DNA of 64,000 nucleotides from Silicimonas sp. Lineage in GTDB: Bacteria; Pseudomonadota; Alphaproteobacteria; Rhodobacterales; Rhodobacteraceae. Of this stretch, positions 39,946 to 55,916 are shown in pieces. Every line of letters starts with the position of its first letter. The stretch's first letter is position 1. Under the pieces are notes generated by a model. The model saw nothing but the letters and a program-made list of their open reading frames with translations. It made no database searches and had not been told where the DNA came from. Location of the stretch: NCBI GenBank assembly GCA_013002465.1, contig JABDJO010000137.1, positions 1-64,000 of the forward strand, written 5' to 3'. A program made the translations under genes and the position numbers.

Positions 39946-40419
39946 TTAGTTGGTCACGGTCAGGCTCGCGGCCAGCGGCGCACCGTCGATCGCAAGCGTA
40001 CTGTGGTCATTGGCGTTCAGGGTGACCCGGACATCGACGTCGCCTTCCGGCAGGTTTTCCAGGTGAAACCAGTCGCCATAAACCCGCGCCGCTTTCACGC
40101 CGTTCAGGTAGACGTGAGCGTGCCCTTCGCCCGGTTGATTGGCCTTGCCCGCATTACCGGGCGCAAAGGTAAACTCGGTCGTCGCGATGTGCAGGTTCCA
40201 GCCTGCAACAGGGTCTTTCAGTACTTGGATTTCCAATGTCGGAACAGGAATATCCGCCGCAAGTTCAAGCATCGTGCCATGATCGTGGCTTGCCGGGTTG
40301 CCATGGTCCGCGCCGTGGTCATGGCCATCCAGCGTGACGCCATTGGCCGCCGCCAACAAGAACCCCACCCCGCCGCCGAACACCAGCCCGATGACCAAAA
40401 GTGCCAGGGGCCGGTTCAT
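39946..40419 (-). CDS. His-rich membrane-anchored protein next to CbtAB
   Basis: A 157-residue protein from ATG 40419. One N-terminal hydrophobic segment (about residues 4-26) is followed by a His/Asp-rich stretch, DGHDHGADHGNPASHDHG, and a beta-sandwich-like domain with GEGHAHVYLNGVKAARVYGDWFHL and NANDHSTLAIDG. Probably exported and anchored in the inner membrane. It overlaps the end of cbtA by four bases (ATGA), so it belongs to the riboswitch-controlled cbtBA operon. A cobalt- or other metal-capturing role is inferred from the His-rich region and operon; I do not know a named family. Confidence 0.75.
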   Translation of the reverse strand: MNRPLALLVIGLVFGGGVGFLLAAANGVTLDGHDHGADHGNPASHDHGTMLELAADIPVPTLEIQVLKDPVAGWNLHIATTEFTFAPGNAGKANQPGEGHAHVYLNGVKAARVYGDWFHLENLPEGDVDVRVTLNANDHSTLAIDGAPLAASLTVTN

Positions 40420-41099
40420 GCAGAGGCCTCGGGGTCGCTGGCCCAAAGTGCTCCGGCGAAGAACCCGGTCAAGACCCAGGCCACCAGCCCAAGCCCCAGG
40501 GCCCTGGACGCGAACAGCGCACCCAATTCCGTCGGCACCGGACCAGCGAAACTGTCAGGCGTCGGCGCACCCACAAGGTGCGGCGCAAGCAGCAGAACAA
40601 CGGCGCCCGCCCAAAGAAGCCACGACCGTCCAAACGCAATCAGCCAAAGCGCAAAGGCCGCGGCGATCACTGTCGCAAACCACCAGATCTGACGTGCCGT
40701 GACATCTGCCGAGGCCGCGCCCGGAACTTCCGGTGCCAGCGAAAACGCTGGCGCAAGTTGCACCGCGCAGAACCCGGCGATCCCCCAAAGAAGGCCGCGA
40801 CGCGCATCAATCAGCGCTCCCTGTTCCTCGGCCAAGGACATCATCGCAACAAGGATCAAGGCGTACCCGGAATAGATCAGCATGCTGAACAAGATGCTGA
40901 GACCATCGCGCATCAAATCCAGCGAAAATGGCGGCGGGGACGCGTCAGCGGCGGGACCACCGAAATGGACCAACGTGCCGCTTTCATACAGTTCTGCATG
41001 GAGCAAAACCGGTTGAAGGAAAAACAACTGCAGAATCGCCGCGCACAGCCCGGCGCCCGCCCCGGCGATCAGGGCAGTGGTCAGGATCCTGGTGAACAT
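40416..41099 (-). CDS. cbtA: cobalt transporter subunit CbtA
   Basis: A 227-residue inner-membrane protein with five predicted helices. It matches the CbtA family (MFTRILTTALIAGAGAGL start, QLFFLQPVLLHAELYE, LYSGYALILVA-like helix and GFCAVQLAPAFSLAPEVPG). CbtA and CbtB were predicted as a cobalt uptake system from their linkage to B12 riboswitches. Second gene of that operon here, 108 bases after cbtB. Confidence 0.9.
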   Translation of the reverse strand: MFTRILTTALIAGAGAGLCAAILQLFFLQPVLLHAELYESGTLVHFGGPAADASPPPFSLDLMRDGLSILFSMLIYSGYALILVAMMSLAEEQGALIDARRGLLWGIAGFCAVQLAPAFSLAPEVPGAASADVTARQIWWFATVIAAAFALWLIAFGRSWLLWAGAVVLLLAPHLVGAPTPDSFAGPVPTELGALFASRALGLGLVAWVLTGFFAGALWASDPEASA

Positions 41100-41378: not shown

Positions 41379-41415
41379 ATCAATCTCCTTGCCGCCCTAC
41401 CCGACGGCTGGGTTA

Positions 41416-41632
41416 CCGTTTTGCCTGGCAGGTCTCCTGGCTTGCGGGTCAACGCGCGCTCCCCTCCTTCCCCCCGAAGCGGGAGTGGTTCTTGGGCAGG
41501 CGCTCTCCGCATACAGTCGCGGGGGCGGCTGCGGCTTCGGCCCATTCGGGCGTGACCGCATTCCCTCAAGCTTGCCGAATTCCGACAAGACCAAGCCTCT
41601 TCATCTAAACCTTAGGAAGGCCTGTGTGCAAC
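41416..41632 (-). promoter_or_regulatory. cobalamin riboswitch upstream of cbtB
   Basis: On the minus strand the region carries the conserved AdoCbl-riboswitch core in order: GGGAATGCGGTCACGCC, GCAGCCGCCCCCGCGACTGTA, and the B12 box AGCCAGGAGACCTGCC (ending near 41421). It starts about 25 bases past the cobF stop and ends about 37 bases before the cbtB ATG, so it should shut off cobalt uptake when cobalamin is plentiful. Boundaries are estimated. Confidence 0.93.
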
Positions 41633-41655: not shown

Positions 41656-42399
41656 CTAATCGCGACGTTTCAAAAGATAGGTGTCCATGATCCAGCCATG
41701 GCGCGCGCGGGCATCTTGTCGCGTCCTGACAATCTGGTCGGTCATGCTGGCCAAGGGACCTTTTAGCAAAATCTGGTTTTCCATGCCAAGAAACGCGCCC
41801 CACCATATGTCCAATCCCTTGGGATCAAGGTGCGTAAAGCTGCATTCGCCATCCAGCATGACGGCAACAGTGCTTGCCGCTTCGGGCCACCCGTCGTCCC
41901 TTAGCCTGCGGCCTGTTGTGATAACCACCAGCGCATTGATCGCGTTCAACGGGATGGCATGGGCCGCCGTCAAAGCCTGAAGCGCCGTTATGCCCGGCAC
42001 GACGGCAATCTTGGGCATCGGGCTTAACCGGCCCGCGATCCTGAGCGAGCTGTCATAAAGCGAAGGATCGCCCCAAACCAAAAGAGCCACACGGCTGGCC
42101 GCGCGCGTTTCCAGGGCCTTGCTCCAGGCCAGTGCAATAGCATCGTGCCAGGAATCCACCCCTTGCCGGTAATCGCCCGAGGCGTCGCGCACCGGCAGAT
42201 CGAAGGCAAGGACGCGGTCATCAGCTTCCGGCCCCAAGACCGATGCACAAATGGTGCGCCGAAGATCGGCCAGATCGGACTTTTCCGACCCTTTTCGTGG
42301 GATCAGGATCAATTCGGCTTCGCGAATTGCGGCCTCGCCCGCGCGGGTCAGGTGATCGGGATTGCCTGTCCCTATGCCAATGAGAGTCAGTTCTTTCAC
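41656..42399 (-). CDS. cobF: precorrin-6A synthase (deacetylating)
   Basis: SAM-dependent methyltransferase that methylates C1 of precorrin-5 and removes acetate, a step specific to the aerobic cobalamin pathway. The 247-residue protein begins with ELTLIGIGTGNPDHLT, the tetrapyrrole-methylase glycine motif, and has LLVWGDPSLYDSSLRIAGRL, PGITALQALTAAHAIPLN and MLDGECSFTHLDPKGLDIWWGAFL. Last gene of the large minus-strand cob operon, overlapping cobA by four bases. Confidence 0.93.
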   Translation of the reverse strand: MKELTLIGIGTGNPDHLTRAGEAAIREAELILIPRKGSEKSDLADLRRTICASVLGPEADDRVLAFDLPVRDASGDYRQGVDSWHDAIALAWSKALETRAASRVALLVWGDPSLYDSSLRIAGRLSPMPKIAVVPGITALQALTAAHAIPLNAINALVVITTGRRLRDDGWPEAASTVAVMLDGECSFTHLDPKGLDIWWGAFLGMENQILLKGPLASMTDQIVRTRQDARARHGWIMDTYLLKRRD

Positions 42400-43124
42400 G
42401 ATGCAAGGTCCGACAAGGCACCATAGAGGATCAAAGCCGGGGCCCGACCAGGCGGGTCGTTTTCAAGACGTTTTGCCAGATCGGCCACGGTGGCCCTGCA
42501 AAACGCCTGTTCCGACGTGCTGACACCTTCGGCCATCATCGCAGGAGTTTCAGCCGGCAACCCATTCGCCATCAACAAAGCCGCCATTTCGGCAAATGTC
42601 CGGCGCCCCATGAAAACAACGGTTGTCGCATCGGGATCGGCGAGCGCTGGCAGGTTCAAAACCTCGGGCAGGCGCCCGGTCACATCATGGCCGGTCACGA
42701 ACTGCAGCCGCCGCGCGGTCAGGCGCCGGGTCAGTGGAATACCCGCTTCGGCCGCCGCCGCGCAGGCGGATGGCACGCCGGGAACAATCTCGAATGCGAT
42801 CCCCGCCCCATGAAGCGCAAGTAATTCTTCTTCCAGACGCCCAAAAATGCCGCCATCTCCAGACTTCAGCCGCACAACCCTTCCACCCGTCTTTGCATAG
42901 TCGACCAGCAACCGGCTTACATGGTCCTGAAGCGGAGACTTGCGTCCGGCCCGCTTGCCCACGCTGATCAGATCGGCACCCTGCCGGGCATGTTGCAAAA
43001 TGGGCCCCGAGGACAGATCGTCGTACAAAACCGCATCCGCCCGCGCCAACCGGTCCACCGCCTTCAACGTCAAAAGCTCGGGATCACCGGGGCCCGAGCC
43101 CACAAAGCTCACAAACCCACTCAT
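42396..43124 (-). CDS. cobA: uroporphyrinogen-III C-methyltransferase
   Basis: Adds methyl groups at C2 and C7 of uroporphyrinogen III to make precorrin-2, the entry into corrin synthesis. The 242-residue protein has FVGSGPGDPELLTLKA, DAVLYDDLSS, VRLKSGDGGIFGRLEEE, PGVPSACAAAAEAGIPLTRR and VFMGRRTFAEMA. No CysG-type siroheme synthase domain is fused. It overlaps both neighbours (cobB and cobF) by four bases. Confidence 0.93.
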   Translation of the reverse strand: MSGFVSFVGSGPGDPELLTLKAVDRLARADAVLYDDLSSGPILQHARQGADLISVGKRAGRKSPLQDHVSRLLVDYAKTGGRVVRLKSGDGGIFGRLEEELLALHGAGIAFEIVPGVPSACAAAAEAGIPLTRRLTARRLQFVTGHDVTGRLPEVLNLPALADPDATTVVFMGRRTFAEMAALLMANGLPAETPAMMAEGVSTSEQAFCRATVADLAKRLENDPPGRAPALILYGALSDLAS

Positions 43125-44449
43125 TGGTCATCCTCGGCGATCATGTGAAAAAAGGTGCCTGTCACATGCCCACGGACAGAGCCGGTTTCAGGGACCGGAT
43201 TGCCGTCCGCGTCGAACACCTGGGCCAGAGGCGCGTCCGGTTCGTCAAGGATGGTCGAATAGTGGAACTCGTGCCCTCTGAGCGCCTGACCGGCCCCAAA
43301 CCCCGGCATGTTCGCTGAAAGAACCGCACGGCGATAGCCCAGGTGGAACTTGCGCTTCTCATAACTTGTGATCAACCCAAGCAACCCAGCCATCTGGTGC
43401 CGGGTACCTTCCTTGTCGATCAGGGCGTCGCCAAGAACCATGTACCCCCCGCATTCGCCGTGAACCGGGCGGGTCTGGGCAAAAGCGCGGAGGCCTTCAA
43501 GAAATGACGTGTTGGCGGCAAGTTTTCCGGCGTGCAATTCCGGGTATCCACCTGGCAACCAGACCAAATCCGCAGAAGGATCAGGTGCCTCGTCCGCCAG
43601 GGGTGAAAAAGGCAAGACCTCGGCCCCCGCCCGCCGCCACCCTTCCAGAAGATGCGGATAGGTGAATGAAAATGCGGCATCTCGTGCCAGGGCAATGCGT
43701 TGCGCAGGCGGCGTTGGCAGCGCGCCGCCCTCACCCACCGGAATTGAGGCTGCCGCCTTTCGCAGGGCCGACAGATCGACATGTTCCCGCAAAAAGGTGG
43801 CATAGCCTGCAATCGCGGCATCAAGATTGGGGTGCTCGACGGCCTGTATCAGACCCAGATGGCGTTCCGGCAACGTCAGGTCGCCGCGCCGTGGCAGGAC
43901 ACCCAGTACCGGAATGCCGGCCTTGTCCATACCCAGCCGCGCCAACCTTTCGTGTCGCGGGCTGGCAACTCGGTTCAGGATGACCCCGGCAAACGGCAAT
44001 TCGGGATCATAGCTTTTGAACCCAAGCGCCGTTGCCGCAGCCGATTGCGCCTGCCCGCCAACGTCGATCACCAGAACCACCGGCCAGCCCATGCGCCGGG
44101 CAGTTTCGGCACTAGAGCCAAACCCGGATGCTCCCTTCCCCGCCACACCATCGAACAACCCCATGGAGCCTTCGCCGACCACGATGTCGGCACCCCGTGC
44201 CTGGCCCGCAATGGCGGCAAACAACTCTGGTCCCATGGCCCAACTATCAAGGTTGAACGACCGGCGCCCGGCTGCTGCTTCGTGGAATGCCGGATCGATG
44301 TAATCCGGCCCACTCTTGAATGGCTGAACCTCAAGGCCGTCTTCGGCGAAGGTCCGCAACAGGCCAAGGGTAACGGTCGTTTTCCCGGTACCCGAGGCGG
44401 GGGCCGACACCATAAGCCCCGGGGGATTGGATGTTGTACCCTTACTCAT
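43121..44449 (-). CDS. cobB: hydrogenobyrinate a,c-diamide synthase
   Basis: ATP- and glutamine-dependent amidation of the a and c side chains of hydrogenobyrinic acid. The 442-residue protein has an N-terminal P-loop-like synthetase domain ([18 protein letters not shown]) and [12 protein letters not shown], and a C-terminal triad glutamine amidotransferase domain with the Cys in [11 protein letters not shown]. Works before cobalt insertion by CobN in the aerobic route. Start overlaps cobM by 8 bases. Confidence 0.93.
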
Positions 44450-45230
44450 GTGTCACCGAGGAAAACGGGCTGTCGGCAGATTGCGGGCGATAACGGCGGT
44501 CATAATCGGCTGAATAGAGAGCGCTTCGAACTTCGGCCTTGCCGCGCAAAGCGGGGCCGACAAGGATCAGAGCCGTCCGTGTGATTTCGTCTGGCACAAG
44601 TTTCGCAATGGAGTCCAAGGTGCCTCGGACAATCTGCTCGTCTGGCCAACTGGCGCGAAAGACCACGGCAACCGGGCAATCCTGACCATAATGCGGGGTC
44701 AGTTCAGTCACAACATCGTCCAGACGGTGGATCGACAGGTGAATGGCAAGCGTGGCGCCGGTTGCAGCGAAATTCGACAGCGTTTCACCCTTTGGCATGG
44801 CCGATGCCCGCCCCGAGGTGCGGGTCAGAACCACCGATTGCGCAACACCCGGAAGGGTTAGTTCCGCGCCGAGCGTGGCCGCCGCAGCGGCAAAGGCTGG
44901 CACACCCGGAGTAACCGACACCGGGATGTCCAGCGACGCCAATCGCTCCATTTGTTCACCCATGGCCGACCAGACCGACAAATCGCCGGAATGCAGTCGA
45001 GCCACGTCTTGACCCTGTTCATGGGCTTTGTGGCACTCGTCTATGATCGCATCGAGGTCAAGCGGCGCCGTGTTCACGATCCGCGCCCCATCCGGACAAT
45101 GAGAAAGAATAGCCTCGGGCACCAGCGAGCCGGCGTAAAGGCAAACCGGACATGACGCGATCAGATCACGGGCGCGCAATGTGATGAGGTCGGGCGCACC
45201 TGGTCCCGCACCAATAAAGTGAATGGTCAT
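44442..45230 (-). CDS. cobM: precorrin-4 C11-methyltransferase
   Basis: Methylates C11 of precorrin-4 to give precorrin-5. Of 262 residues; family motifs are [69 protein letters not shown] and [15 protein letters not shown]. Its start overlaps cobE by four bases and its end overlaps cobB by eight. Confidence 0.94.
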
Positions 45231-45595
45231 GGGTCCTCTCTTTCAGCAATCGCGCAGGTGGCCATTCGATCCGCCGAGATCGCGCGCGGTGCCAATAGTC
45301 GCGCACCCGGCCCCGCGGCCAAAAGTGCAGCGGCCTCTGACACACTTCCAGTACGAAAGGCATTTTCACTGGCATCCGAACAGCTTTGAACCGGGGCCAT
45401 CGCCAAATCAGCATCGGGCACCGATACCACCGGCAAGCCAAGATCGCGCGTCATTGCGACAAAGCACGGCGCGCCGGACTTCGAACTGGCTGTCGCGCAA
45501 CTTACAACGCCGTCGCGCCCGCCCGCCAGTTGCAAGGCCGAGACTAGGCTGTCCACCGTCGCATCGTTGCGAAACCCGAAACCGGCCACCCTCAT
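45227..45595 (-). CDS. cobE: cobalamin biosynthesis protein CobE (CbiG C-terminal-like)
   Basis: A 122-residue protein from ATG 45595, which overlaps the cobL stop in ATGA. It has [20 protein letters not shown] at the start and [25 protein letters not shown] near the end, the pattern of CobE/CbiG_C. The family is needed in the aerobic pathway but its exact role is unclear; it may help accept or hydrolyse an intermediate, as CbiG does in the anaerobic route. Confidence 0.87.
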
Positions 45596-46791
45596 CGCGT
45601 TACACTCCACTGAACAACGGGATAGGCGGCCTTCCAGCCCCGAAACTTCCCGAGCGGGGCGGCCTCGGACAGGTCGATCTTGATCAGGCTGCCGCCGAAC
45701 CGCCCCTGTGCTTCGCTCAGCAGAGCGCTGGTTTCCAGCGTGACCGCGTTGGCCACGATGCGCGTGCCGGTTTCAAGATGAGTCCACAACCAATCCAGAA
45801 GGTCCGATGTCAGCCCACCACCGACGAACACCGCTTGCGGTGAGGGCAGCCCGTCCAGCATCACAGGTGCAAACCCTTCAATGATGAAAAGTCTATCCTG
45901 GCCAAGTGTTTGAGCGTTCTTTTTGATGCGCGCCGCGCGATCTGAACGGGCCTCTATGGCGCTGGCCGTGGTGGATGGATGCGACATGAGCCATTCGATC
46001 GCAATCGACCCCGATCCCGATCCGATGTCCCAAAGGTGTTCGCCCCGTCGCGGGGCCAATGTGGATACTGTGACGGCCCGGATCACGCGCTTTGTGATTT
46101 GGCCATCTGTGTCGAATACCTCGTCCGACTGCCCTGTGGCAGATGTCAGCACCGATCCGTCCCCTGCAATCTCCAAACCGACGCAGACGGGATGACGAAC
46201 GCCTTCAATATCATAGCTCGCCGCTGACGCTTCGCTCACACGCTCATGTGGCCCCCCCAACCCTTCCAACACGACCACACGGGTGCCGCCAAACCCGATG
46301 CCCGCCAGATAGGCCGCCAGATCTGCCACCGCTGCGCCATCGCGGAGGGTCACGAGCGCGCGTTGACCCGGCACCAAAGAAGGGCGCAATCGGGAAAACG
46401 GTGCTGCGTGGCAGCCAAGGCAAGAGGTTTTCTCAAGCGCCCAGCCCAATCGCGAAGCCGCGAGCGAAAACACTGAGACACCTGGACAAGAGCGCCATTC
46501 GCCCTGTTCGTATCGGTTTGCCAGAATGCTTCCTGCTCCGAACCAGAAAGGATCACCACTGGCCAGAACCACCGTTTGCCGCCCTCGCAACCCGTCCAAA
46601 AGCGGCAATCCATCGGCAAAGGGCACAGGCCAGACAACCCGTTCCGCGCCGCTATCAGGAACAAGCGCCAAATGGCGTTTCGACCCCATGACCACTTCTG
46701 CTTCACCAAGGGCCTTCTGACTTGCAGCCGACAGCCCCTCCGGTCCATCTTCGCCAAGACCGATGATCGTCAGCCAATGAGCTTCAGCCAT
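45592..46791 (-). CDS. cobL: precorrin-6Y C5,15-methyltransferase (decarboxylating)
   Basis: Fused CbiE-CbiT enzyme that methylates C5 and C15 and decarboxylates the C12 acetate of precorrin-6B. The 399-residue protein has an N-terminal CbiE domain (WLTIIGLGEDGPEGLS, VVLASGDPFWFGAGSIL) and a C-terminal CbiT Rossmann domain (about 210-395) with GEHLWDIGSGSGSIAIEWL and VFVGGGL. ATG 46791 has GGAGGG about nine bases upstream, deciding the start. That ATG lies head to head with the cobK ATG, sharing two bases. Confidence 0.93.
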   Translation of the reverse strand: MAEAHWLTIIGLGEDGPEGLSAASQKALGEAEVVMGSKRHLALVPDSGAERVVWPVPFADGLPLLDGLRGRQTVVLASGDPFWFGAGSILANRYEQGEWRSCPGVSVFSLAASRLGWALEKTSCLGCHAAPFSRLRPSLVPGQRALVTLRDGAAVADLAAYLAGIGFGGTRVVVLEGLGGPHERVSEASAASYDIEGVRHPVCVGLEIAGDGSVLTSATGQSDEVFDTDGQITKRVIRAVTVSTLAPRRGEHLWDIGSGSGSIAIEWLMSHPSTTASAIEARSDRAARIKKNAQTLGQDRLFIIEGFAPVMLDGLPSPQAVFVGGGLTSDLLDWLWTHLETGTRIVANAVTLETSALLSEAQGRFGGSLIKIDLSEAAPLGKFRGWKAAYPVVQWSVTR

Positions 46792-47548
46792 GCGCCCGAC
46801 CCTCCTCATCCTTGGCGGCACGACCGAAGCCAGCCGTCTGGCCCGACGCGTGGCCGATTTGGCAGTTGAGGCTGTGTATTCCTATGCTGGTCGTGTGGCC
46901 ACGCCCGATCGGCAACCAATCGAGACTCGGGTCGGCGGATTTGGCGGTGTTGAGGGGCTGATCGACTATCTTCGCGACCGACGCATCACCCACATTATTG
47001 ACGCAACCCACCCGTTCGCGGCCCAGATCAGCCGCAACGTTTCGGCTGCGGCCACGGCGACGTCCCTGCCCCTGATCGCACTGACCAGACCGCCCTGGAC
47101 CCCCATTGACGGGGATCAATGGACTACGGCAACCGACATGGCCGACGCCGTCAAACATGTTGAAACGAAGGAAAAGAGGCGCATCTTTCTTGCCATCGGG
47201 CGAACCGAAATCAGCGCCTTCCGCCGCGTCCCGCAACACCACTACCTGCTGCGGATGGTTGAGCCGCCCGCAACGCCGCCTAGCATGCCGGATCATACCC
47301 TTGTGATTGCGCGCGGACCATTCGACGAAGCCTCCGACCGGGAACTGATTCAACACCACGAAATCGACCTTGTCGTGTCGAAAAATTCCGGCGGTGCAGG
47401 GGCTTATGCAAAGATCGGCGCGGCCCGCGCCCTTGGGCTTCCGGTCCTTATGATCAACCGGCCTCGGCTTCCCACGCGCCGCGAAGTCTCGGAAGTGGAT
47501 GAGGTGATCGCTTGGCTGCATCACACTGACACCGAACGCGGGGTATAG
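46790..47548 (+). CDS. cobK: precorrin-6A reductase
   Basis: NADPH-dependent reductase converting precorrin-6A to precorrin-6B. The 252-residue protein has LLILGGTTEASRLARRV at the N-terminus, DATHPFAAQISRN, FLAIGRTEISAF, VVSKNSGGAGAYAKIGAARALGLPVLMI and RREVSEVDEV. It is the only gene on the plus strand within the large cob operon: its start codon overlaps that of cobL and its last 28 bases overlap the 3' end of cobJ. No clear ribosome binding site is seen before the ATG. Confidence 0.93.
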   Translation: MRPTLLILGGTTEASRLARRVADLAVEAVYSYAGRVATPDRQPIETRVGGFGGVEGLIDYLRDRRITHIIDATHPFAAQISRNVSAAATATSLPLIALTRPPWTPIDGDQWTTATDMADAVKHVETKEKRRIFLAIGRTEISAFRRVPQHHYLLRMVEPPATPPSMPDHTLVIARGPFDEASDRELIQHHEIDLVVSKNSGGAGAYAKIGAARALGLPVLMINRPRLPTRREVSEVDEVIAWLHHTDTERGV

Positions 47549-48276
47549 ACAATGGGCGCCATACCTTCCCGTTGAACGAGGCGTGTCTGGCTTGACCCCA
47601 AAAGCACGACAGTTTTCATATCCGCCATTTCGGGGCGGGCATCTTGAAGGGGTATCGTCGTGATCGCCTCGTCCGTCGTTGTCACTGCCCGCGCGAAGGT
47701 TATCAACCGCTCCGGTTCGCAGACATCGCGCAATACCTCCAGAACGCGGACAAATCCCGCGGGGCGGGCTTTGGACCTTGGATTATAGAAAGCGCAGGCA
47801 AAATCCGCCTCGATAGCAAGCCGAATCCGTTTTTCTATCAGATCCCAGGGCTTCAAGTTGTCCGACAGATTGATGGCGCAGAAATCATGCCCCAGGGGCG
47901 CGCCGGCCTTCGCCGCCGCCGCCAGCATTGCCGTGATTCCGGGTAGAACTCGGATATCCAGCGTTCGCCAGAACTTGGGGCCAGCCTCCAGGGCCTCGAA
48001 CACGGCCGAGGCCATGGCAAACACCCCAGGATCGCCCGACGAAACGACAACGACCTGCTTGCCATTCGCGGCCATTTGCAGGGCGTGCCGCGACCGGTCG
48101 ATTTCAACCCGATTGTCCGATGCGTGCTTTGTCAGACCATCGCGGTCCGGCACACGCGCGACATAGGGGATATAACCCACGACGTCAGTGGCACTGGCCA
48201 AAGCCGCCTGCACCTCTGGCGTCACAAGTGCCTCGTCAGCGGGTCCCAGTCCGACAATGGTCAAGCTGCCACTCAT
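47521..48276 (-). CDS. cobJ: precorrin-3B C17-methyltransferase
   Basis: Methylates C17 with ring contraction, giving precorrin-4. The 251-residue protein has LTIVGLGPADEALVTPEVQAA, DVVGYIPYVARV, VVSSGDPGVFAMASAVFE, PGITAMLAAAAKAGAPLGHDF and ACAFYNPRSKAR. Its start overlaps the end of cobI by four bases; downstream the transcript must run across cobK in antisense to reach cobL. Confidence 0.94.
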   Translation of the reverse strand: MSGSLTIVGLGPADEALVTPEVQAALASATDVVGYIPYVARVPDRDGLTKHASDNRVEIDRSRHALQMAANGKQVVVVSSGDPGVFAMASAVFEALEAGPKFWRTLDIRVLPGITAMLAAAAKAGAPLGHDFCAINLSDNLKPWDLIEKRIRLAIEADFACAFYNPRSKARPAGFVRVLEVLRDVCEPERLITFARAVTTTDEAITTIPLQDARPEMADMKTVVLLGSSQTRLVQREGMAPIVYTPRSVSV

Positions 48277-49001
48277 GGCCGCCGCCCCTGCCCATGAACG
48301 ACGATGATCGAGAAATAGGGCACGACCTTGTCACTGTCGGCATTGACCAGCCGGGTAACCTGTTGTTCGGGCATCGACGCACGTTCGACCAGCCAGGCGG
48401 CCTCGAACAACCCAGCCGTTTGCAAGGCACGCATCACCTTGGGCATGTGCCGCCCGATCTTCATGATCACCACGGCGTCAGCGCCTTTCATGTGCCGAAG
48501 AAGATCATCTTCGGGCAAGGTCCCCATCACCACGGTCAAGACGTCATCACCCCAGGTAATCGGCTGCCCCGTGGCCGTCCACGCCGCCGACATGCCTGTG
48601 ATCGCGGGCACAACTTCGGTTGGCACGTGATCTGCAAGCCGGCGATAGAGATGCATGAAAGAACCATAAAAAAACGGATCACCTTCGCACAAAACGACTA
48701 CGTCTTCGCCACCCCTGGCAAGTTCTTTCAGCCGCACTGTACACTCGGAATAAAAGCCCGACAGGACTTCGTTGTACCGAGGATCGCTTACCGGAATCTC
48801 GGTGGTGACGGGATATTCCATCGGATACTCGATCGCGTCCTCGGGTACCAAGCCATTCGCCAGCCGCCGGGCCTGCCCAGGCCGCCCCGCCTTGCGGAAA
48901 AATGCGACATGGCGCGCCTCTTTCAGCAACCGATGCGCCTTGACGCTCATCAGGTCCGGGTCACCCGGGCCAAGACCAACACCATAGACACGCCCCGTCA
49001 T
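48273..49001 (-). CDS. cobI: precorrin-2 C20-methyltransferase
   Basis: Methylates C20 of precorrin-2 to give precorrin-3A. From ATG 49001, which overlaps the cobH stop (ATGA), it has 242 residues; the frame extends upstream to 49262 but that part is the complement of cobH. Motifs: GRVYGVGLGPGDPDLMSVKA, VVLCEGDPFFYGSFMHLYRRL, VVPAITGMSAAWTATG and VIMKIGRHMPKV. Confidence 0.94.
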   Translation of the reverse strand: MTGRVYGVGLGPGDPDLMSVKAHRLLKEARHVAFFRKAGRPGQARRLANGLVPEDAIEYPMEYPVTTEIPVSDPRYNEVLSGFYSECTVRLKELARGGEDVVVLCEGDPFFYGSFMHLYRRLADHVPTEVVPAITGMSAAWTATGQPITWGDDVLTVVMGTLPEDDLLRHMKGADAVVIMKIGRHMPKVMRALQTAGLFEAAWLVERASMPEQQVTRLVNADSDKVVPYFSIIVVHGQGRRP

Positions 49002-49627
49002 TCCGCACGACTCGCGATGGCGTTGATGGCTGCAACGGTGATGGCGCTTCCGCCCAGGCGGCCTTCTACGATGCAACATGGAGCGGGTTGTTCTTCCCAC
49101 AATGCTGCCTTGGATTCCGCCGCACCCACAAACCCGACCGGGCAGCCGATAATGGCGGCCGGGCGCGGACAATCGGGGTCCTCCAGCATGTTCAGAAGAT
49201 GAAACAGCGCTGTCGGCGCATTTCCAATTGCCACCAATGCCCCTTCTAGGCGAGGTCGCCATAATTCAAGCGCGGCTGCTGAACGCGTGTTGTTCATGGT
49301 CTTGGCCAATTCGGGCACCGAGTCATCCCAAAGCGTGCAGATCACGTCGTTGTCGCCGGGCAGACGCTTGCGCGTCACCCCCTCGCTCACCATACGCGCG
49401 TCACAAAAGATCGGCGCGCCGTCTTCCAGCGCCACCCGCGCTGCAGCCACAAAACCGGTCGAGAACCTTATATGCGCTTCAAGTCCGACCATCCCGGCCG
49501 CGTGGATCATCCGAACGGCAACGCATTCTTCGTGGGGTTCAAACCTGGACAAATCCGCCTCGGCCCTGATGGTGCGAAAAGACTCCGCATAGATCGCGGC
49601 ACCATTTTTTTCATAGACATGGGGCAT
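48998..49627 (-). CDS. cobH: precorrin-8X methylmutase
   Basis: Moves the C11 methyl to C12 to give hydrogenobyrinic acid. The 209-residue protein has YEKNGAAIYAESFRTIRAEAD at its start (YxxxGxxI-S pattern shown in part), RMIHAAGMVGLE with the catalytic His, VRDARMV-like FCDARMVSEGVTR, and IIGCPVGFVGAAESKAAL near the end. Its start overlaps the cobG stop by one base (TGATG). Confidence 0.94.
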   Translation of the reverse strand: MPHVYEKNGAAIYAESFRTIRAEADLSRFEPHEECVAVRMIHAAGMVGLEAHIRFSTGFVAAARVALEDGAPIFCDARMVSEGVTRKRLPGDNDVICTLWDDSVPELAKTMNNTRSAAALELWRPRLEGALVAIGNAPTALFHLLNMLEDPDCPRPAAIIGCPVGFVGAAESKAALWEEQPAPCCIVEGRLGGSAITVAAINAIASRAE

Positions 49628-50754
49628 CAGGTAATCAGCTCCTCAAGTGCCGTCTCGGACAGGCCGGTTCGGGCCGGGGTGTCGGACGCTTTCCCCTGCC
49701 GCACAAGGTCAAATCGCCCGCCATTCCCGACAATCGTGATCTCGGTCTCGCGCGGACTGGCACACCCCTTGGCGCATCCCGAAACATGGACCTCTGCCAT
49801 TTTCTGCCCCGCCAACCGGCGCGCAAGCTTGCGCGTTTCAACACTGGACTGGGCGCAGGCCGGGGCGCCAGGGCAGGCCACGACCCTTGACAGCGGATCA
49901 TTGGGCGAGGTGATGAAAGCCTCATCTTCAAAAGCCGATCCACCCTCGGCAATCAACATCCGCCATGGGGTGACGCGCAGGTGGCGCAATCCAGTAAGTT
50001 CTACAAGACGACGCAGGTCTGTCGCCGTGGTTTGCCCGAAAGGAACGCCATAGACCCGGCCCATTGCGACGGCGCCCGGACGCATCTTGTCAGCGCCACG
50101 CACCGTGCGCGGCACCTCAAAACCGACCGGCAGGGGTTGGGTGCGAAGATGTCGCGCCATTCGCGCTGCATGCGCTCCGCCGGTTGCCACAAACCAATTT
50201 GCAACATTAACAATGGTATCCATCACGTTAGTTTCGTTGACGATTGCCCCATAATCGGCCCCATCCAGGCACAACATCAAAGGGCTGGCACCGCCGCCTT
50301 CGAACCGGAAATCCGCAGATACATCCCGCAGCATCGGCATCGCGCCCGTGTCGATGGCAAACCCCATCTTGCCGGGCAGTTCGGGCAGATCGCCAAGGCG
50401 GGTTTCAAGCGCGCTCGCCAGTCTGTGAGCCAGATCGCCGTCCTGCCAAAATGGCGTCACGACCAAGTTGCGACGGGCCTCCAGCACGGGATCCGCGTCA
50501 ACCAGGCCTTCCTCCAGCAAGCGTGTCAGCAAGTCCGGGTGATCGTCCTCTGAAACCCCGCGAATTTGCAAATTTGCGCGCGAGGTCACGTCGATCATGC
50601 CATTCCCGAATTCGATGGCCAGATCGCACAACCGCACAGCATCACGCGCCGTCAACCGCCCGAACCGGGGCCTGACGCGCATCAGCCAGCCATCGCCGGA
50701 CGCCATCGGGCGATAGGCACTTGGACACCAGCCTTTCACCAGCGGGTCGGTCAT
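49627..50754 (-). CDS. cobG: precorrin-3B synthase
   Basis: Oxygen-dependent monooxygenase that hydroxylates C20 of precorrin-3A, the defining step of the aerobic pathway. From ATG 50754, overlapping the cobN stop, it has 375 residues. It belongs to the sulfite/nitrite-reductase-like fold: CPGAPACAQSSVETR and VHVSGCAKGCASP hold the four Cys for a 4Fe-4S centre. The sequence GWCPSAYRPMASGDGWLMR at the N-terminus is typical. Because it needs O2, the organism should be an aerobe. Confidence 0.94.
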   Translation of the reverse strand: MTDPLVKGWCPSAYRPMASGDGWLMRVRPRFGRLTARDAVRLCDLAIEFGNGMIDVTSRANLQIRGVSEDDHPDLLTRLLEEGLVDADPVLEARRNLVVTPFWQDGDLAHRLASALETRLGDLPELPGKMGFAIDTGAMPMLRDVSADFRFEGGGASPLMLCLDGADYGAIVNETNVMDTIVNVANWFVATGGAHAARMARHLRTQPLPVGFEVPRTVRGADKMRPGAVAMGRVYGVPFGQTTATDLRRLVELTGLRHLRVTPWRMLIAEGGSAFEDEAFITSPNDPLSRVVACPGAPACAQSSVETRKLARRLAGQKMAEVHVSGCAKGCASPRETEITIVGNGGRFDLVRQGKASDTPARTGLSETALEELIT

Positions 50755-53700
50755 TCGGCGGCCTCCAGCTCGGCACGGATCGAGTTCCGGCGCGTCGTCC
50801 AAAGCCCGGCGCGGTGGAGGGCGGCAAACTGCGCCTTCATGGCCGCCAATGCCGCCGGATTGGCCTTGGCGAGAAATCCCACAACATCGTCATCGCCCAA
50901 AGTCGCATCGTAATAGACATCGAACAGATGCGGTCCGACCACACCGGCCAGATTGGCGAAGGCCGCCATGTGATCGAGTGTGGCGGCGATTTCGGCCGCT
51001 CCGCGAAAGCCATGACGCGTCATGCCGGCAATCCAGCCAGGCTGGGCGGCGCGACCCTGCACCACCCGAGCCACCTCTTCGCTGAGCGCGCGCGCGCGGG
51101 GTTGATCGGGATCCGTATTGTCCAGATGATATAGCGCTGCATTCGCCCCGCCCGTCACCGCCTTTGCGGCTGCAAAGCCAGCCTCGTGCGCGGCATAATC
51201 GGCAGCCAGCAACAGATCGGTTTCGCGCATATCCTGCAAGTGCACGAAGGCCTCGGCCGCGTTCACCCGTGCGGATATCCCATCCGCGTCCTCCTGCGAA
51301 CGCTCTCCGTCCATGGCCCAGGCGCTGGCCGCAAGCCAGGCTTCGCCTGCTTTCTGCCGGGCTTCGTCGGTCAGTTCTTCCGGCAGATGCTCCATCCCCA
51401 GCCCATAGCTACCGGGTTTCGGACCATAGACCCGCTGACCCGGATCACTGGCAAACGGGTTCCAGTCGGGCGCCTCGTCGCGCGCCGCCAGGGCACGCAC
51501 GGCTTGCGCGAACAATGCCGTCAGGGTGGGGAACACATCACGAAACAGCCCGGATACCCGAAGTGTCACATCCAACCTTGGCCGCTCAAGCTCGGCAATC
51601 GGGATGATCTCGGTTCCCGTCACACGCTCGGACCGCTTGTCCCAAACCGGACGCACGCCCAATAGATGCAGCGCCATGGCAAATTCCTCGCCCGCCGTCC
51701 GCATGGTGGCCGAGCCCCAAAGATCGACGATCAAGCCCCTGGGATAGTCGCCGCTGTCCTGCAGGTGGCGCCGCACCAGTTCTTCGGCCAGTTTCACGCC
51801 CTGAGCATAGGCTGCCCGGGTCGGCACGGCGCGGGGATCGGTCGCATAAAGATTGCGCCCGGTCGGCAGCACATCCCGCCGCCCGCGATAGGGCGACCCG
51901 GAAGGGCCAGCGTTGACACGCTTGCCGGACAGCGCCGCTAGCAAGGCGGATTTCTCTGCCTCGGTCGAGCGTTTGAAATCCTCGGTCGTCACGCGACGCT
52001 CCGACAAATTTGCGTCGTCCACCGTGGGCATACGGCCCCAGATGTGCAAACCGTCGCCAAACTGGCTTTCTTTCACGTCACACACAAATCGGTCGATCCG
52101 GGTGATGGCTTCGGCCACACTGGCCGCCGCATCAAGACCCAGGTCGCTTTCGACACCCAGGGCCCGAGCCTCGGCCCTGATGTCCGATTGCAACCGGTCG
52201 CGGCGGCGTGGGTCAAGGCCATCGGCATTGGAAAACTCATCCAGAAGCGCTTCGAGCGTCGCAAATCTGTCGGGGGTTTGACTGTCTGCAAGGGGCGGAG
52301 GCACATGGCCCAAGGTAACCGCGCCAATCCGTCGCTTGGCTTGTGCAGCTTCGCCGGGGTCATTGACGATAAAGGGATAAATGACCGGTGTCGCCCCGAT
52401 CAATGCCTCGGGCCAACAGGCACCTGAAAGTGCCACCGATTTCCCCGGTAGCCACTCAAGTGTCCCATGGGCTCCGACATGAACCAGGGCATCGACCTTT
52501 TGCGCCTGACGCAGCCACAGATAGAACGCAACGTAGCCATGGCACGGGGTGCGGGCCATGTCGTGATAGTCATCAACCCGCGTCATGCGCGCGCCACGCT
52601 CCGGCTGAAGGGCAATCAGGACATTTCCGCGCTTGGTTGCCGGAAAACGAAAGGCACCGTCCCGCACCAGCGCATCGGTCTCGGGTGCGCCCCAGACCTT
52701 GCTGAGTTCGGCCCGAAGGCATTCCGGCAAGGAATCTAATGCGTTCCTGTAGTCTGCGACCGACCATTCGATCGTCTGATCGGAAAGTGCGCATTCCAGC
52801 GCAGGGCCAATTGCGATGCGATACCCCGCCCCTTTCAGGTCCTCCAGAATCGCCTCGCTCGACGCCAGTGCATCCAGCCCGACAGCATGAGCCATCTGCC
52901 AGTCCTTGCCGGGATACGTTGACAGGACCAAAGCAAGTTTGCGCGCACAGGCAGAGTGATTGGCCAAACCGACAAGACCTGCCGCACGCTCCGCGATGGC
53001 CTCAATGCGTTTGGGTTCGGGAGTGTGCCGCGCCAGGCGGATCTCCAGCTCCGGATCGTGGGCACCGGATTCCTTGAAAGACGCAACCCCGGCAAAAATG
53101 CGTCCGTCCACCTCGGGCAACACCACATGCATCGCCAGATCGGTCGGCGAAAGACCTCGCTCGGATTTGGCCCAGGCCTCATGCGATGATGTGGCAAGCG
53201 CAACCTGCAGCACTGGCACGCCGCCTGCGTCCAGGGCCGAACGTCCGGTTTCTCGCTTGCCCGAAAAGGCCGTCGCATTCACGACGATCGACGGCCCCAT
53301 CTCGGCAATTCGGGTTTCCAGCCATTCTGCGGCCCCGGCCATTTTCAACGACGGCGCAAATAGTCCCTGAACCTTGAACCCTTTTGATTCAAGGGCAGTA
53401 AACAACGCTTCGATTGGTCCCATGTCGGCGGCGGCAAGGTAGGCCCTGTAAAAAACGACCAAGGCCAATGGCTGCTGGTCCGGCTGCGCCAAGGCACACC
53501 GGCCCCCCGCGCAGGCGCCGCAGCTTGCATGGGAAATCGCGCCGGCGTCCGGTGACCAGCAGCCGAACTCGGGCACGGACTTGGCCCCCGCGACCGGCCC
53601 TGGGTAAAACCCAGCCGCCAAGGCAAGTTGTGCAAGAGCCGCCTGCCCCGCAACCGCGCCGCCTTCGATTGCAAGGCTGTTCAAACGCCGCAACGTCGCC

Positions 53701-54104
53701 GCCGGAACAGTCGACATTGCCTCAAGCTGAAGGTCGTCGCGCCCGTCGCCCGGCAGAATGGCAAGAACGGTGCCATTGGATTGTGCCAATGCGCGAAGTT
53801 GCGCCAGCCCGTAGTCCCAATAGGACGCTCCGCCGATCAGGCGAACCAGAACGGCCTTCGCCTGCGACAGGGTCTGTTCGACATATGTATCGACCGAAAC
53901 GGGGTGTTTCAGCGCCGAAAGGTTCGCAAGTCGCAAGGACGGCAGGTCATTCCCTTGATCCCGCGCCCGATGCCAGCCAGCCGCAAATGCCGAAAGATCG
54001 CTATCGGAAAATGACAGGACCACAAGATCCGCGGGCGATTGCCCCAGATCCGTCGGTGTCTCGGTTTCCTCCAACCCCTGGCTTTCGCGAAAAACGACGT
54101 GCAT
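50751..54104 (-). CDS. cobN: cobaltochelatase subunit CobN
   Basis: Large, ATP-driven chelatase subunit inserting cobalt into hydrogenobyrinate a,c-diamide. From ATG 54104 it has 1117 residues, at the short end for CobN. The core (about 430-1110) has family sequences such as HGYVAFYLWLRQ, LVHVGAHGTLEWLPGKSVALS, YPFIVNDPGEAAQAKRRIGA and RVTGTEIIPIAELERPRLDV. The Cys-rich CGACAGGRC element near residue 200 is an extra possible metal site. The partners CobS and CobT are not in the window. Confidence 0.92.
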   Translation of the reverse strand: MHVVFRESQGLEETETPTDLGQSPADLVVLSFSDSDLSAFAAGWHRARDQGNDLPSLRLANLSALKHPVSVDTYVEQTLSQAKAVLVRLIGGASYWDYGLAQLRALAQSNGTVLAILPGDGRDDLQLEAMSTVPAATLRRLNSLAIEGGAVAGQAALAQLALAAGFYPGPVAGAKSVPEFGCWSPDAGAISHASCGACAGGRCALAQPDQQPLALVVFYRAYLAAADMGPIEALFTALESKGFKVQGLFAPSLKMAGAAEWLETRIAEMGPSIVVNATAFSGKRETGRSALDAGGVPVLQVALATSSHEAWAKSERGLSPTDLAMHVVLPEVDGRIFAGVASFKESGAHDPELEIRLARHTPEPKRIEAIAERAAGLVGLANHSACARKLALVLSTYPGKDWQMAHAVGLDALASSEAILEDLKGAGYRIAIGPALECALSDQTIEWSVADYRNALDSLPECLRAELSKVWGAPETDALVRDGAFRFPATKRGNVLIALQPERGARMTRVDDYHDMARTPCHGYVAFYLWLRQAQKVDALVHVGAHGTLEWLPGKSVALSGACWPEALIGATPVIYPFIVNDPGEAAQAKRRIGAVTLGHVPPPLADSQTPDRFATLEALLDEFSNADGLDPRRRDRLQSDIRAEARALGVESDLGLDAAASVAEAITRIDRFVCDVKESQFGDGLHIWGRMPTVDDANLSERRVTTEDFKRSTEAEKSALLAALSGKRVNAGPSGSPYRGRRDVLPTGRNLYATDPRAVPTRAAYAQGVKLAEELVRRHLQDSGDYPRGLIVDLWGSATMRTAGEEFAMALHLLGVRPVWDKRSERVTGTEIIPIAELERPRLDVTLRVSGLFRDVFPTLTALFAQAVRALAARDEAPDWNPFASDPGQRVYGPKPGSYGLGMEHLPEELTDEARQKAGEAWLAASAWAMDGERSQEDADGISARVNAAEAFVHLQDMRETDLLLAADYAAHEAGFAAAKAVTGGANAALYHLDNTDPDQPRARALSEEVARVVQGRAAQPGWIAGMTRHGFRGAAEIAATLDHMAAFANLAGVVGPHLFDVYYDATLGDDDVVGFLAKANPAALAAMKAQFAALHRAGLWTTRRNSIRAELEAAE

Positions 54105-54159
54105 GGATAAGACCCAGCCTTTCAGGCAGCCGCGCAGACAGAGATGCGCAAATGACCCA

Positions 54160-55212
54160 CTAGCCCGCCACCTTTTCCGGCTCCAGCACGGCGCGGATGG
54201 CATCTAGGTTTATGTCATCATGCTCGCCGATCACCACAAGCTTGCCTTGTCGATCCTCACTGGGCGCCCAGGGGCGATCGAACTGGTGGCGCACCCTTGT
54301 CCCGACCCCTTGAACCAGCAGGCGCATCGGCTTGCCCCTGACAGCCGCATACCCCTTGACACGCAGAATGTTCTGTCGCTTTGCAAGCTCCTCGATCCGC
54401 TTCACCAGATCCTCGGCGCTTGTCACTTCGGGGATGTCGACCACAACCGTGTCAAAGTCGTCATGATCGTGATCGTGAGGCGTGTCGTGATGGGAGGGCC
54501 GCGCGGCCATGTCATCCTCGGCCGCTGCGCCCACGCCAAGGATCACACGCGCATCGACGGCGCCCTCTGCCACCTCGATCACCGGCAGATTGCGCGGAGC
54601 CTCCGCTGCCACGATAGCTTTCGCCTTGGCGATACCATCCGGCCCTGCCAGATCGGGCTTGGTCAACAGGACGATGTCGGCACAGGCGATCTGGTCTTCA
54701 AACACCTCTGACAAAGGCGTTTCGTGGTCCAGACTGTCGTCGGCCAGACGCTGTTGATCCACCGCCGCCACATTGGGGGCAAATCGCCCGGCCGCCACGG
54801 CCTCGGCATCGGCCAGGGCGATCACACCGTCCACCGTCACCCGGCTTCGGATCGCTGGCCAGTCAAACGCCTTCAGTAACGGCTTTGGCAGCGCCAGCCC
54901 GGAGGTTTCTATCAGGATGTGATCGGGTTGCGGGTCCAAGGCCATCAGCGCTTCGATCGTTGGAATGAAGTCATCGGCCACCGTGCAGCAAATGCAGCCA
55001 TTGGCCAGCTCAACGATGTTTTCTGCCGGGCAATCGGGGATCGCACAGCTTTTCAGGATCTCTCCATCGACACCCACGTCGCCGAATTCATTGACGATAA
55101 CCGCCAGACGCCTCCCCTCGGTGGTTTCGATCAGATGGCGAATAAGCGTGGTCTTTCCCGACCCAAGAAAGCCGGTGACGACGGTGACGGGAATTTTGGC
55201 GAGGTCAGTCAT
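54160..55212 (-). CDS. cobW: cobalamin biosynthesis protein CobW
   Basis: G3E-family P-loop GTPase, a probable cobalt chaperone delivering metal to CobN. From ATG 55212 it has 350 residues. Motifs: GFLGSGKTTLIRHL (Walker A), the metal-binding GCICCTV, ETSGLALPKPLLKAF, and LTKPDLAGP as the guanine-specificity NKxD-like motif. A His/Asp-rich segment HDTPHDHDHDDFD (about residues 244-256) can bind metal. The start lies within the last 8 bases of the DUF1636 gene. Confidence 0.93.
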   Translation of the reverse strand: MTDLAKIPVTVVTGFLGSGKTTLIRHLIETTEGRRLAVIVNEFGDVGVDGEILKSCAIPDCPAENIVELANGCICCTVADDFIPTIEALMALDPQPDHILIETSGLALPKPLLKAFDWPAIRSRVTVDGVIALADAEAVAAGRFAPNVAAVDQQRLADDSLDHETPLSEVFEDQIACADIVLLTKPDLAGPDGIAKAKAIVAAEAPRNLPVIEVAEGAVDARVILGVGAAAEDDMAARPSHHDTPHDHDHDDFDTVVVDIPEVTSAEDLVKRIEELAKRQNILRVKGYAAVRGKPMRLLVQGVGTRVRHQFDRPWAPSEDRQGKLVVIGEHDDINLDAIRAVLEPEKVAG

Positions 55213-55591: not shown

Positions 55592-55683
55592 CGTCCTTCA
55601 GCTTGGTCGAGGGCGGGAACGAGGCCGCGAGGCGAAAGCCCGACAGACCCGTCACCAGAAACCCCCCGTCCGGTTACGTCTTG

Positions 55684-55862
55684 GCGGCTGGCAGGTCTCC
55701 CGGCTTGCGGATGATTGCGGTGATCCGGCCTTCCCAACCCGCCAAACGGGCCAGTGGCCAATGGATCCCCTCTCCGGTCACGGTCGCGGGGGCGGCTGCT
55801 TTTAGGGGTCAATGACCCTTTCGCATTCCCTTTTCACCTGCTCTATGTGAGCAAGCACCAGC
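55684..55862 (-). promoter_or_regulatory. cobalamin riboswitch heading the large cob operon
   Basis: On the minus strand: AGCAGGTGAAAAGGGAATGCG, then GCAGCCGCCCCCGCGACCGTGA, and the B12 box GCCGGGAGACCTGCCAGC near 55687-55706. The first gene (DUF1636) starts about 92 bases downstream. It should repress the whole DUF1636-to-cobF run when adenosylcobalamin is abundant. The divergent cobO gene on the other side is not covered. Boundaries are estimated. Confidence 0.93.
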
Positions 55863-55916
55863 ACCGGGCGACACTCTGCCAAAGAGGTGCCCGAGTCAAG
55901 TTACCAAGAGGATCCA

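Follow-up and report, generated by a model that had tools for sequence, protein, structure and literature searches.

A conserved open reading frame antisense to cobK as a candidate translated bridge across a reversed gene in the cob operon

Organisation of the cob operon

The window (the whole stretch of DNA analysed, 64,000 nucleotides from Silicimonas sp.) carries a minus-strand cob operon in the order cobW-cobN-cobG-cobH-cobI-cobJ, followed beyond a reversed cobK by cobL-cobE-cobM-cobB-cobA-cobF. An initial annotation had described cobK as the lone plus-strand gene of this operon and had placed the operon under a B12 riboswitch, and both statements hold. The features of the locus are as follows.

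55673-55877, minus strand: cobalamin riboswitch upstream of cobW, at the operon head (RF00174, 97 bits)
48273-54203, minus strand: upstream operon genes cobN (50751-54203), cobG (49627-50802), cobH (48998-49627) and cobI (48273-49001), from family matches
47521-48276, minus strand: cobJ, precorrin-3B C17-methyltransferase, from a family match
47521-47548, both strands: 28 bp tail-to-tail overlap of cobK and cobJ, from the coordinates
46790-47548, plus strand: cobK, precorrin-6A reductase (NF005968, TIGR00715, PF02571; predicted-structure pLDDT 91)
46784-47521, minus strand: asORF, the candidate bridge ORF antisense to cobK, 245 codons from the ATG at 47521-47519, with an alternative GTG at 47524-47522 and its TGA stop at 46786-46784; open in the window, with openness and start and stop positions conserved in relatives
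45592-46791, minus strand: cobL, precorrin-6Y C5,15-methyltransferase (CbiE+CbiT), from a family match
41656-45610, minus strand: downstream operon genes cobE (45227-45610), cobM (44442-45230), cobB (43121-44449), cobA (42396-43124) and cobF (41656-42399), from family matches

The identity of CobK is secure, its NF005968 match of 325.8 bits lying above the curated cut-off of 231. A noncontiguous operon is characterised by an opposite-strand gene lodged among operon genes that share one direction, and cobK is embedded in this way between cobJ and cobL, an arrangement kept in relatives. With the ORFs as listed, the sole long gap on the coding strand of the operon is the stretch opposite cobK. 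When asORF is placed in that gap the operon has 12 junctions, whose types depend on the start codons that we chose: eight are of the ATGA, GTGA or TGATG kind (cobG/H, H/I, I/J, J/asORF, L/E, E/M, B/A and A/F), two are 8-nt start-stop overlaps (asORF/cobL and cobM/cobB), and the other two are cobW/N and cobN/G. The cobE ORF as listed starts at a GTG (45610) within cobL; the ATG at 45595 is a likelier start and gives a plain ATGA overlap with the cobL stop. A second cobalamin riboswitch (41410-41610, minus strand, 107.6 bits) follows cobF and precedes the gene of a CbtA cobalt transporter (40416-41099, minus strand).

Overlapping start codons of cobK and cobL

46789-46792, both strands: CATG common to the start codons of cobK (plus) and cobL (minus), seen in the sequence and in 205 of 306 cobK loci

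The ATG codons of cobK and cobL had been noted to overlap by two bases in one CATG, and this is confirmed at 46789-46792, where the cobK ATG (46790-46792, plus) and the cobL ATG (46791-46789, minus) have bases 46790-46791 in common. The cobK start is close to forced, because an in-frame TGA (46778-46780) stands 12 nt before it and the family match covers the protein from residue 4 onwards. Alternative in-frame starts exist upstream for cobL (GTG at 46821, ATG at 46809); the start at 46791 is favoured, with GGAGGG at 46805-46800 and a spacer of 8 nt. Among three plasmid records, the two-base overlap is annotated in two, the third having a gap, and the overlap of the cobJ and cobK tails is likewise annotated in two.

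To follow this junction through related genomes, as the initial annotation had proposed, cobK loci were drawn from relatives, from a family sample (NF005968 present in 306 of 394 genomes, 130 loci taken), from a class sample (present in 96 of 289 genomes, 70 loci taken or met before) and from contigs of named genomes (the best 80 of 547). These are best-scoring matches, a non-random sample in which some genomes occur twice. An in-frame common CATG was found in 205 of 306 loci, the window and duplicate loci being counted. In 240 of the 306, cobL is the adjacent, divergent gene, and the CATG is present in 205 of these 240. At a mean CobK identity of 58%, this is above chance. The remaining loci comprise 35 with cobL adjacent and divergent and no common CATG, two with cobL far away, one with cobL on the same strand and 63 with no cobL within the flank. 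Holders of the CATG include Rhodobacterales, Sphingomonas, Novosphingobium, Bradyrhizobium, Mesorhizobium, Acetobacter, Halomonas (with a long cobL N-terminus), Delftia and Tepidicella. The overlap is thus real and widely conserved. In four loci (L011, L043, L077 and L137) CATG has become CATC or CATA, so that the cobL start is retained and the cobK ATG is gone; in the first three of these an in-frame ATG for cobK lies 27 nt upstream, within cobL. For the analyses below, the 205 CATG loci were reduced to 192 that are non-redundant at 90% identity over 500 bp.

Start signals within the overlapping genes

46800-46805, minus strand: GGAGGG ribosome-binding site of cobL, in cobK codons 4-6 (duplex energy -12.0 in the window)
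46721-46726, plus strand: CTTGCA, putative -35-like element for cobK in cobL codons 22-24, from synonymous constraint
46746-46751, plus strand: CATCTT, putative -10-like element for cobK within cobL, a weak consensus match

It had been proposed that the start signals of each gene lie inside the other, and that GGAGGG is a good ribosome-binding site for cobL within the early codons of cobK. Both proposals agree with the comparison. Across the 192 loci, anti-Shine-Dalgarno pairing upstream of the cobL ATG averages -6.75 kcal/mol against -4.49 for synonymous recodings of cobK (-12.0 in the window at 46805-46800), so that this site in cobK codons exceeds synonymous chance. The corresponding pairing for cobK inside cobL is weaker, at -5.17 against -4.42 (-1.9 in the window).

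The strongest interior synonymous constraint in cobL falls at codons 23-24, GCA AGC (GCTTGC on the cobK strand), with 2.91 and 1.61 bits. CTTGC is found no more than 110 bp from the cobK start in 157 of the 192 loci, compared with 24 of 192 for a control segment of cobL; the distance is 66 or 69 bp in 118 of the 157, and ATCTT accompanies it at a suitable spacing in 107 of 192. CTTGCA and CATCTT may therefore be the -35 and -10 elements of a cobK promoter, an assignment to be read with caution: codon inertia may account for the persistence of AGC, the encoded residues are themselves conserved, and the -10 fits its consensus poorly. A scan for consensus promoters found no promoter-like site upstream of the cobK or cobL start. 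A promoter of cobL's own inside cobK was considered and rejected, since no sigma-70-like minus-strand site was found in 45200-48400 and synonymous constraint stays at or below 0.45 bits throughout cobK codons 12-30, where such a promoter would lie. Over 45200-48400 there are two terminator-like sites against 2.8 expected, and thus no excess; one, a weak one on the minus strand, lies opposite cobK.

An open frame antisense to cobK

On the minus strand of the window, asORF, which the initial annotation had overlooked, begins on the cobJ stop and extends as far as the start of cobL (47521/47524 to 46784) without an inner stop. Its codons are in register with those of cobK, and it is therefore open only if cobK lacks TTA, CTA and TCA. 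An open antisense frame in the window alone would be unremarkable for one GC-rich gene, and it is the comparison between loci that carries the case. When codon use in cobK is set against that in cobL and cobJ over the 192 loci, these three rank as the most depleted among 59 codons (log2 -2.4 to -3.1); the next most depleted is TCG, at log2 -0.85, and the rare codons GTA, ATA, AGA and CGA are not depleted. For leucine, TTA and CTA together account for 21 of 5073 codons in cobK, 320 of 9719 in cobL and 104 of 4290 in cobJ; for serine, the share of TCA is 15 of 1498, 241 of 3944 and 177 of 2412, respectively. In-register antisense stops number 0.07 per 100 codons in cobK, 0.74 in cobL and 0.59 in cobJ, and of the five alternative frames only the in-register antisense frame shows a strong effect.

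In the body of cobK (eight codons trimmed at each end, with expectations from cobL and cobJ of the same loci) there are 24 stop-making codons where 229.1 are expected, and 190 of the 192 loci have none, against 92.4 expected. All 24 fall in two AT-rich loci, L168 and L276; in the other 11 stop-bearing loci the stops lie near the ends, at codons 2-8 or from 243 on. A set with one locus per genus (47 named loci from 46 genera, Acetobacter being present twice; 42 with and five without the common CATG) gave the same picture, with zero stops in 47 of 47 loci against 21.0 expected, and 0 codons against 54.1; it leaves out metagenome-assembled genomes that have no genus name, including the AT-rich L168 and L177. 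The body of asORF is also open in the 35 adjacent loci without a common CATG, except in the AT-rich L177 and L262. The four AT-rich loci L168, L276, L177 and L262 retain the cobJ-cobK-cobL order with an antisense frame full of stops, and the bridge is therefore not required everywhere.

The depletion depends on the neighbourhood of the gene. Where cobK has no cobL nearby, 150 stop-making codons were counted against 145.1 expected from the neighbouring gene (cobJ, or else the longest upstream ORF), and thus no depletion. This control covers 50 of the 63 loci; L246, L249, L250, L027 and L029 were omitted, eight more were too short or had no usable neighbour, and the three loci with cobL far away or co-directional were also left out of the scoring. 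At a GC3 of 0.7-0.8, embedded cobK carries a mean of 0.03 stop-making codons (64 loci), compared with 2.53 where the flank of cobK lacks cobL (19 loci); cobL itself has 1.79 per 250 codons. In L246, L249 and L250, which belong to one genus and in which cobJ converges on cobK and cobL is absent, there are zero stops, with only 1.16, 0.84 and 0.00 predicted from the neighbours; in the one of these that was examined, the gene beyond encodes a META-domain protein and is co-directional with cobK. Elsewhere in the same genome, 44 loosely embedded genes in 660 kb contain 91 stop-making codons against 96.5 expected, which is no depletion. No tightly embedded gene was found among 611 gene calls in that 660 kb, made with a crude gene finder that missed cobK itself because it shortened cobL.

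The ends of the antisense frame

47519-47524, minus strand: GTGATG, in which the cobJ stop (TGA, 47523-47521) overlaps in-register asORF starts; ATGA in 141 and GTGA in 29 of 191 loci
46784-46791, minus strand: ATGGCTGA, in which the cobL start overlaps the asORF stop; a stop there in 176 of 192 loci against 17.1 expected

Both ends of asORF are joined to the flanking genes by overlapping stop and start codons, a feature of translationally coupled gene pairs. At the cobL end, the in-register antisense frame meets its first stop at codon -2, upstream of the cobK ATG, in 176 of 192 loci, the 17.1 expected coming from synonymous resampling of cobL codons. This position arises because codon 2 of cobL is TCT (79 loci) or GCT (75 loci), both of which are minor codons elsewhere in cobL. 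At the cobJ end, 172 of 191 loci have an in-register start at offset -1, where it overlaps the stop codon of cobJ, and the last codon of cobJ ends in A in 142 of 191, compared with 8.5% elsewhere in cobJ. Judged from these frequencies, both junctions are under selection. The asORF start overlaps the C-terminus of cobK and the tail of cobJ, and conservation of the frame there may therefore be partly locked in. In gapped loci asORF may stop before reaching cobL, leaving about 50 nt uncovered in L001 and up to about 366 nt in L061, and coupling at the cobL end is therefore not universal.

The product of the antisense frame

The long conserved ORF, with its conserved start and stop, could suggest that asORF encodes a functional protein and is a true antisense overlapping gene. 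In such a gene the amino-acid sequence would be under selection, and no sign of this was found. At four-fold sites of cobK, where a change alters the asORF residue, the difference over 181 loci is 0.550, near the 0.559 and 0.570 of the neighbours, and there is no extra constraint. Antisense identity above a codon-resampling null is 0.035 for cobK, compared with 0.037 for cobL and 0.042 for cobJ, so that asORF shows no excess. The product has no NCBIfam or Pfam match, and its models (18 sequences) have a pLDDT of 36 and a pTM of 0.11, against 91 and 0.85 for CobK (18 sequences), with no predicted fold. On the four-fold sites, the resampled identity and the absent fold, asORF was rejected as a protein gene, and we regard this reading as very improbable. 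asORF is annotated in none of the three plasmid records, for which the gene table is incomplete. The antisense reading shows no avoidance of rare codons (Spearman -0.03), and heavy translation of asORF is therefore not indicated. The conserved serine at cobK codon 81 (47030-47032) is written AGC in 157 of the aligned loci, which number at most 181; such a synonymous bias is unusual within cobK and may be codon inertia.

Because stops are depleted, the product lacks extra conservation and no fold is predicted, it is the openness of asORF, as far as this comparison can tell, and not its product that is selected.

Proposed function of asORF and alternative explanations

We consider it likely that the operon is read through cobK and that ribosomes cross asORF, thereby avoiding polarity and feeding cobL. 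The minus-strand operon would be transcribed straight through the reversed cobK, leaving some 740 nt of operon mRNA opposite it, between cobJ and cobL, which asORF would keep translatable. Ribosomes ending cobJ would restart at the overlapping GTGA/TGATG, traverse asORF, stop at ATGGCTGA and restart on cobL, aided by its strong ribosome site. What is selected would then be the act of translation and not the peptide. This translation would most probably shield the transcript from Rho-dependent termination, allowing expression of cobL, cobE, cobM, cobB, cobA and cobF, and would also deliver ribosomes to cobL; the gene for Rho is present in this genome. cobK would be transcribed from its own promoter inside cobL. 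The transcription and translation of asORF, the cobK promoter and Rho polarity as the underlying reason are all inferred here from sequence comparison. More generally, we lean towards regarding asORF as an example of a new coding element, a long antisense bridge ORF of alpha-, beta- and gammaproteobacteria that is conserved only for openness and for overlap at both ends, and that would carry ribosomes across a backward gene whatever its peptide.

Plain compaction would require no function for asORF: the start codons would be locked in the CATG and asORF would be open by chance in a GC-rich gene. In-register antisense frames are indeed often open at high GC3, and the CATG overlap is itself a trap, since any change in it harms a start codon. 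The depletion is, however, confined to the three codons that create stops, to a single frame and to cobK in its embedded position, and both end junctions are far more frequent than their null predicts. Compaction is thus contradicted for asORF, and as a full explanation we find it scarcely credible, although it may still explain the persistence of the CATG. The initial annotation had suggested that operon transcription reading through from cobJ into cobL produces RNA antisense to the whole of cobK, and that cobK could in this way be regulated inversely to the riboswitch-controlled genes, which would mean its repression by the antisense RNA. The read-through itself is suggested by evolutionary evidence, namely a stop-free frame kept from the cobJ stop to the cobL start, and noncontiguous operons of S. 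aureus are described as reciprocally regulated (PMC7154746). Against this, the antisense strand appears to be selected for translatability, and so looks less suited to work as naked antisense RNA.

CobK is needed in the same pathway as the rest of the cob operon, so that repression of cobK while the operon is on would be self-defeating. Inverse regulation is thus unsupported, and we judge it quite improbable. A reading closer to the proposed bridge is that translation of asORF serves chiefly to cover the operon mRNA, preventing pairing with cobK mRNA and cutting by RNase III, with Rho polarity secondary. The two transcripts would be complementary over cobK, and the same sequence evidence fits this reading as fits the bridge; sequence alone does not separate it from polarity. 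By itself it leaves the coupling at both ends unexplained, and we think it unlikely as the main cause.

If ribosomes do bridge cobK in this way, translation of the gap would account for the tolerance of a reversed gene within an operon of Rho-using bacteria, and would be a case of selection on a reading frame independent of its product. It would also be a warning that cobL and later genes of vitamin B12 producers may fall silent if cobK is recoded, deleted or moved. Depletion of TTA, CTA and TCA would offer a simple genome test for translated antisense strands elsewhere.

Comparison with known systems

Several described systems share parts of this arrangement, and are compared here as far as the available portions of the sources describe them. 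An ORF antisense to cobK does not appear in the titles and abstract openings of the literature matches listed. Overlaps between the same genes are known from Ensifer and Pseudomonas denitrificans SC510, where the start and stop codons of each adjacent pair in cobH-cobI-cobJ-cobK-cobL overlap, including cobJ-cobK and cobK-cobL as here, although the available part of that account mentions no antisense ORF or function for one (PMC4070679). A long ORF fully antisense to a known gene is exemplified by pop opposite ompA in E. coli; genes of that type are proposed as protein genes, unlike asORF, whose openness is conserved across classes and whose product sequence is not (PMC7103648). The junctions resemble ATGA/TGATG translational coupling (PMC6728339), with cobJ/asORF joined by GTGA, ATGA or TGATG and asORF/cobL by an 8-nt start-stop overlap, as at other operon junctions; the difference is that asORF, the middle ORF here, is antisense to another gene and has no conserved product.

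The noncontiguous operon menE-menC-MW1733-ytkD-MW1731 of S. aureus (Saenz-Lahoya 2019, via PMC7154746) likewise has an opposite-strand gene embedded in an operon, and as there the cobK mRNA would pair over its full length with the operon mRNA. In S. aureus, according to the portion of PMC7154746 available, the stretch opposite the embedded gene is an internal untranslated region, whereas here the corresponding stretch of the presumed co-transcript is a stop-free ORF that has stayed open and overlaps the genes on either side, and is probably not left untranslated. On this comparison with the available accounts, the closest known system is the noncontiguous operon, its internal untranslated stretch apparently replaced in the cob operon by an ORF joined to its neighbours at both ends.
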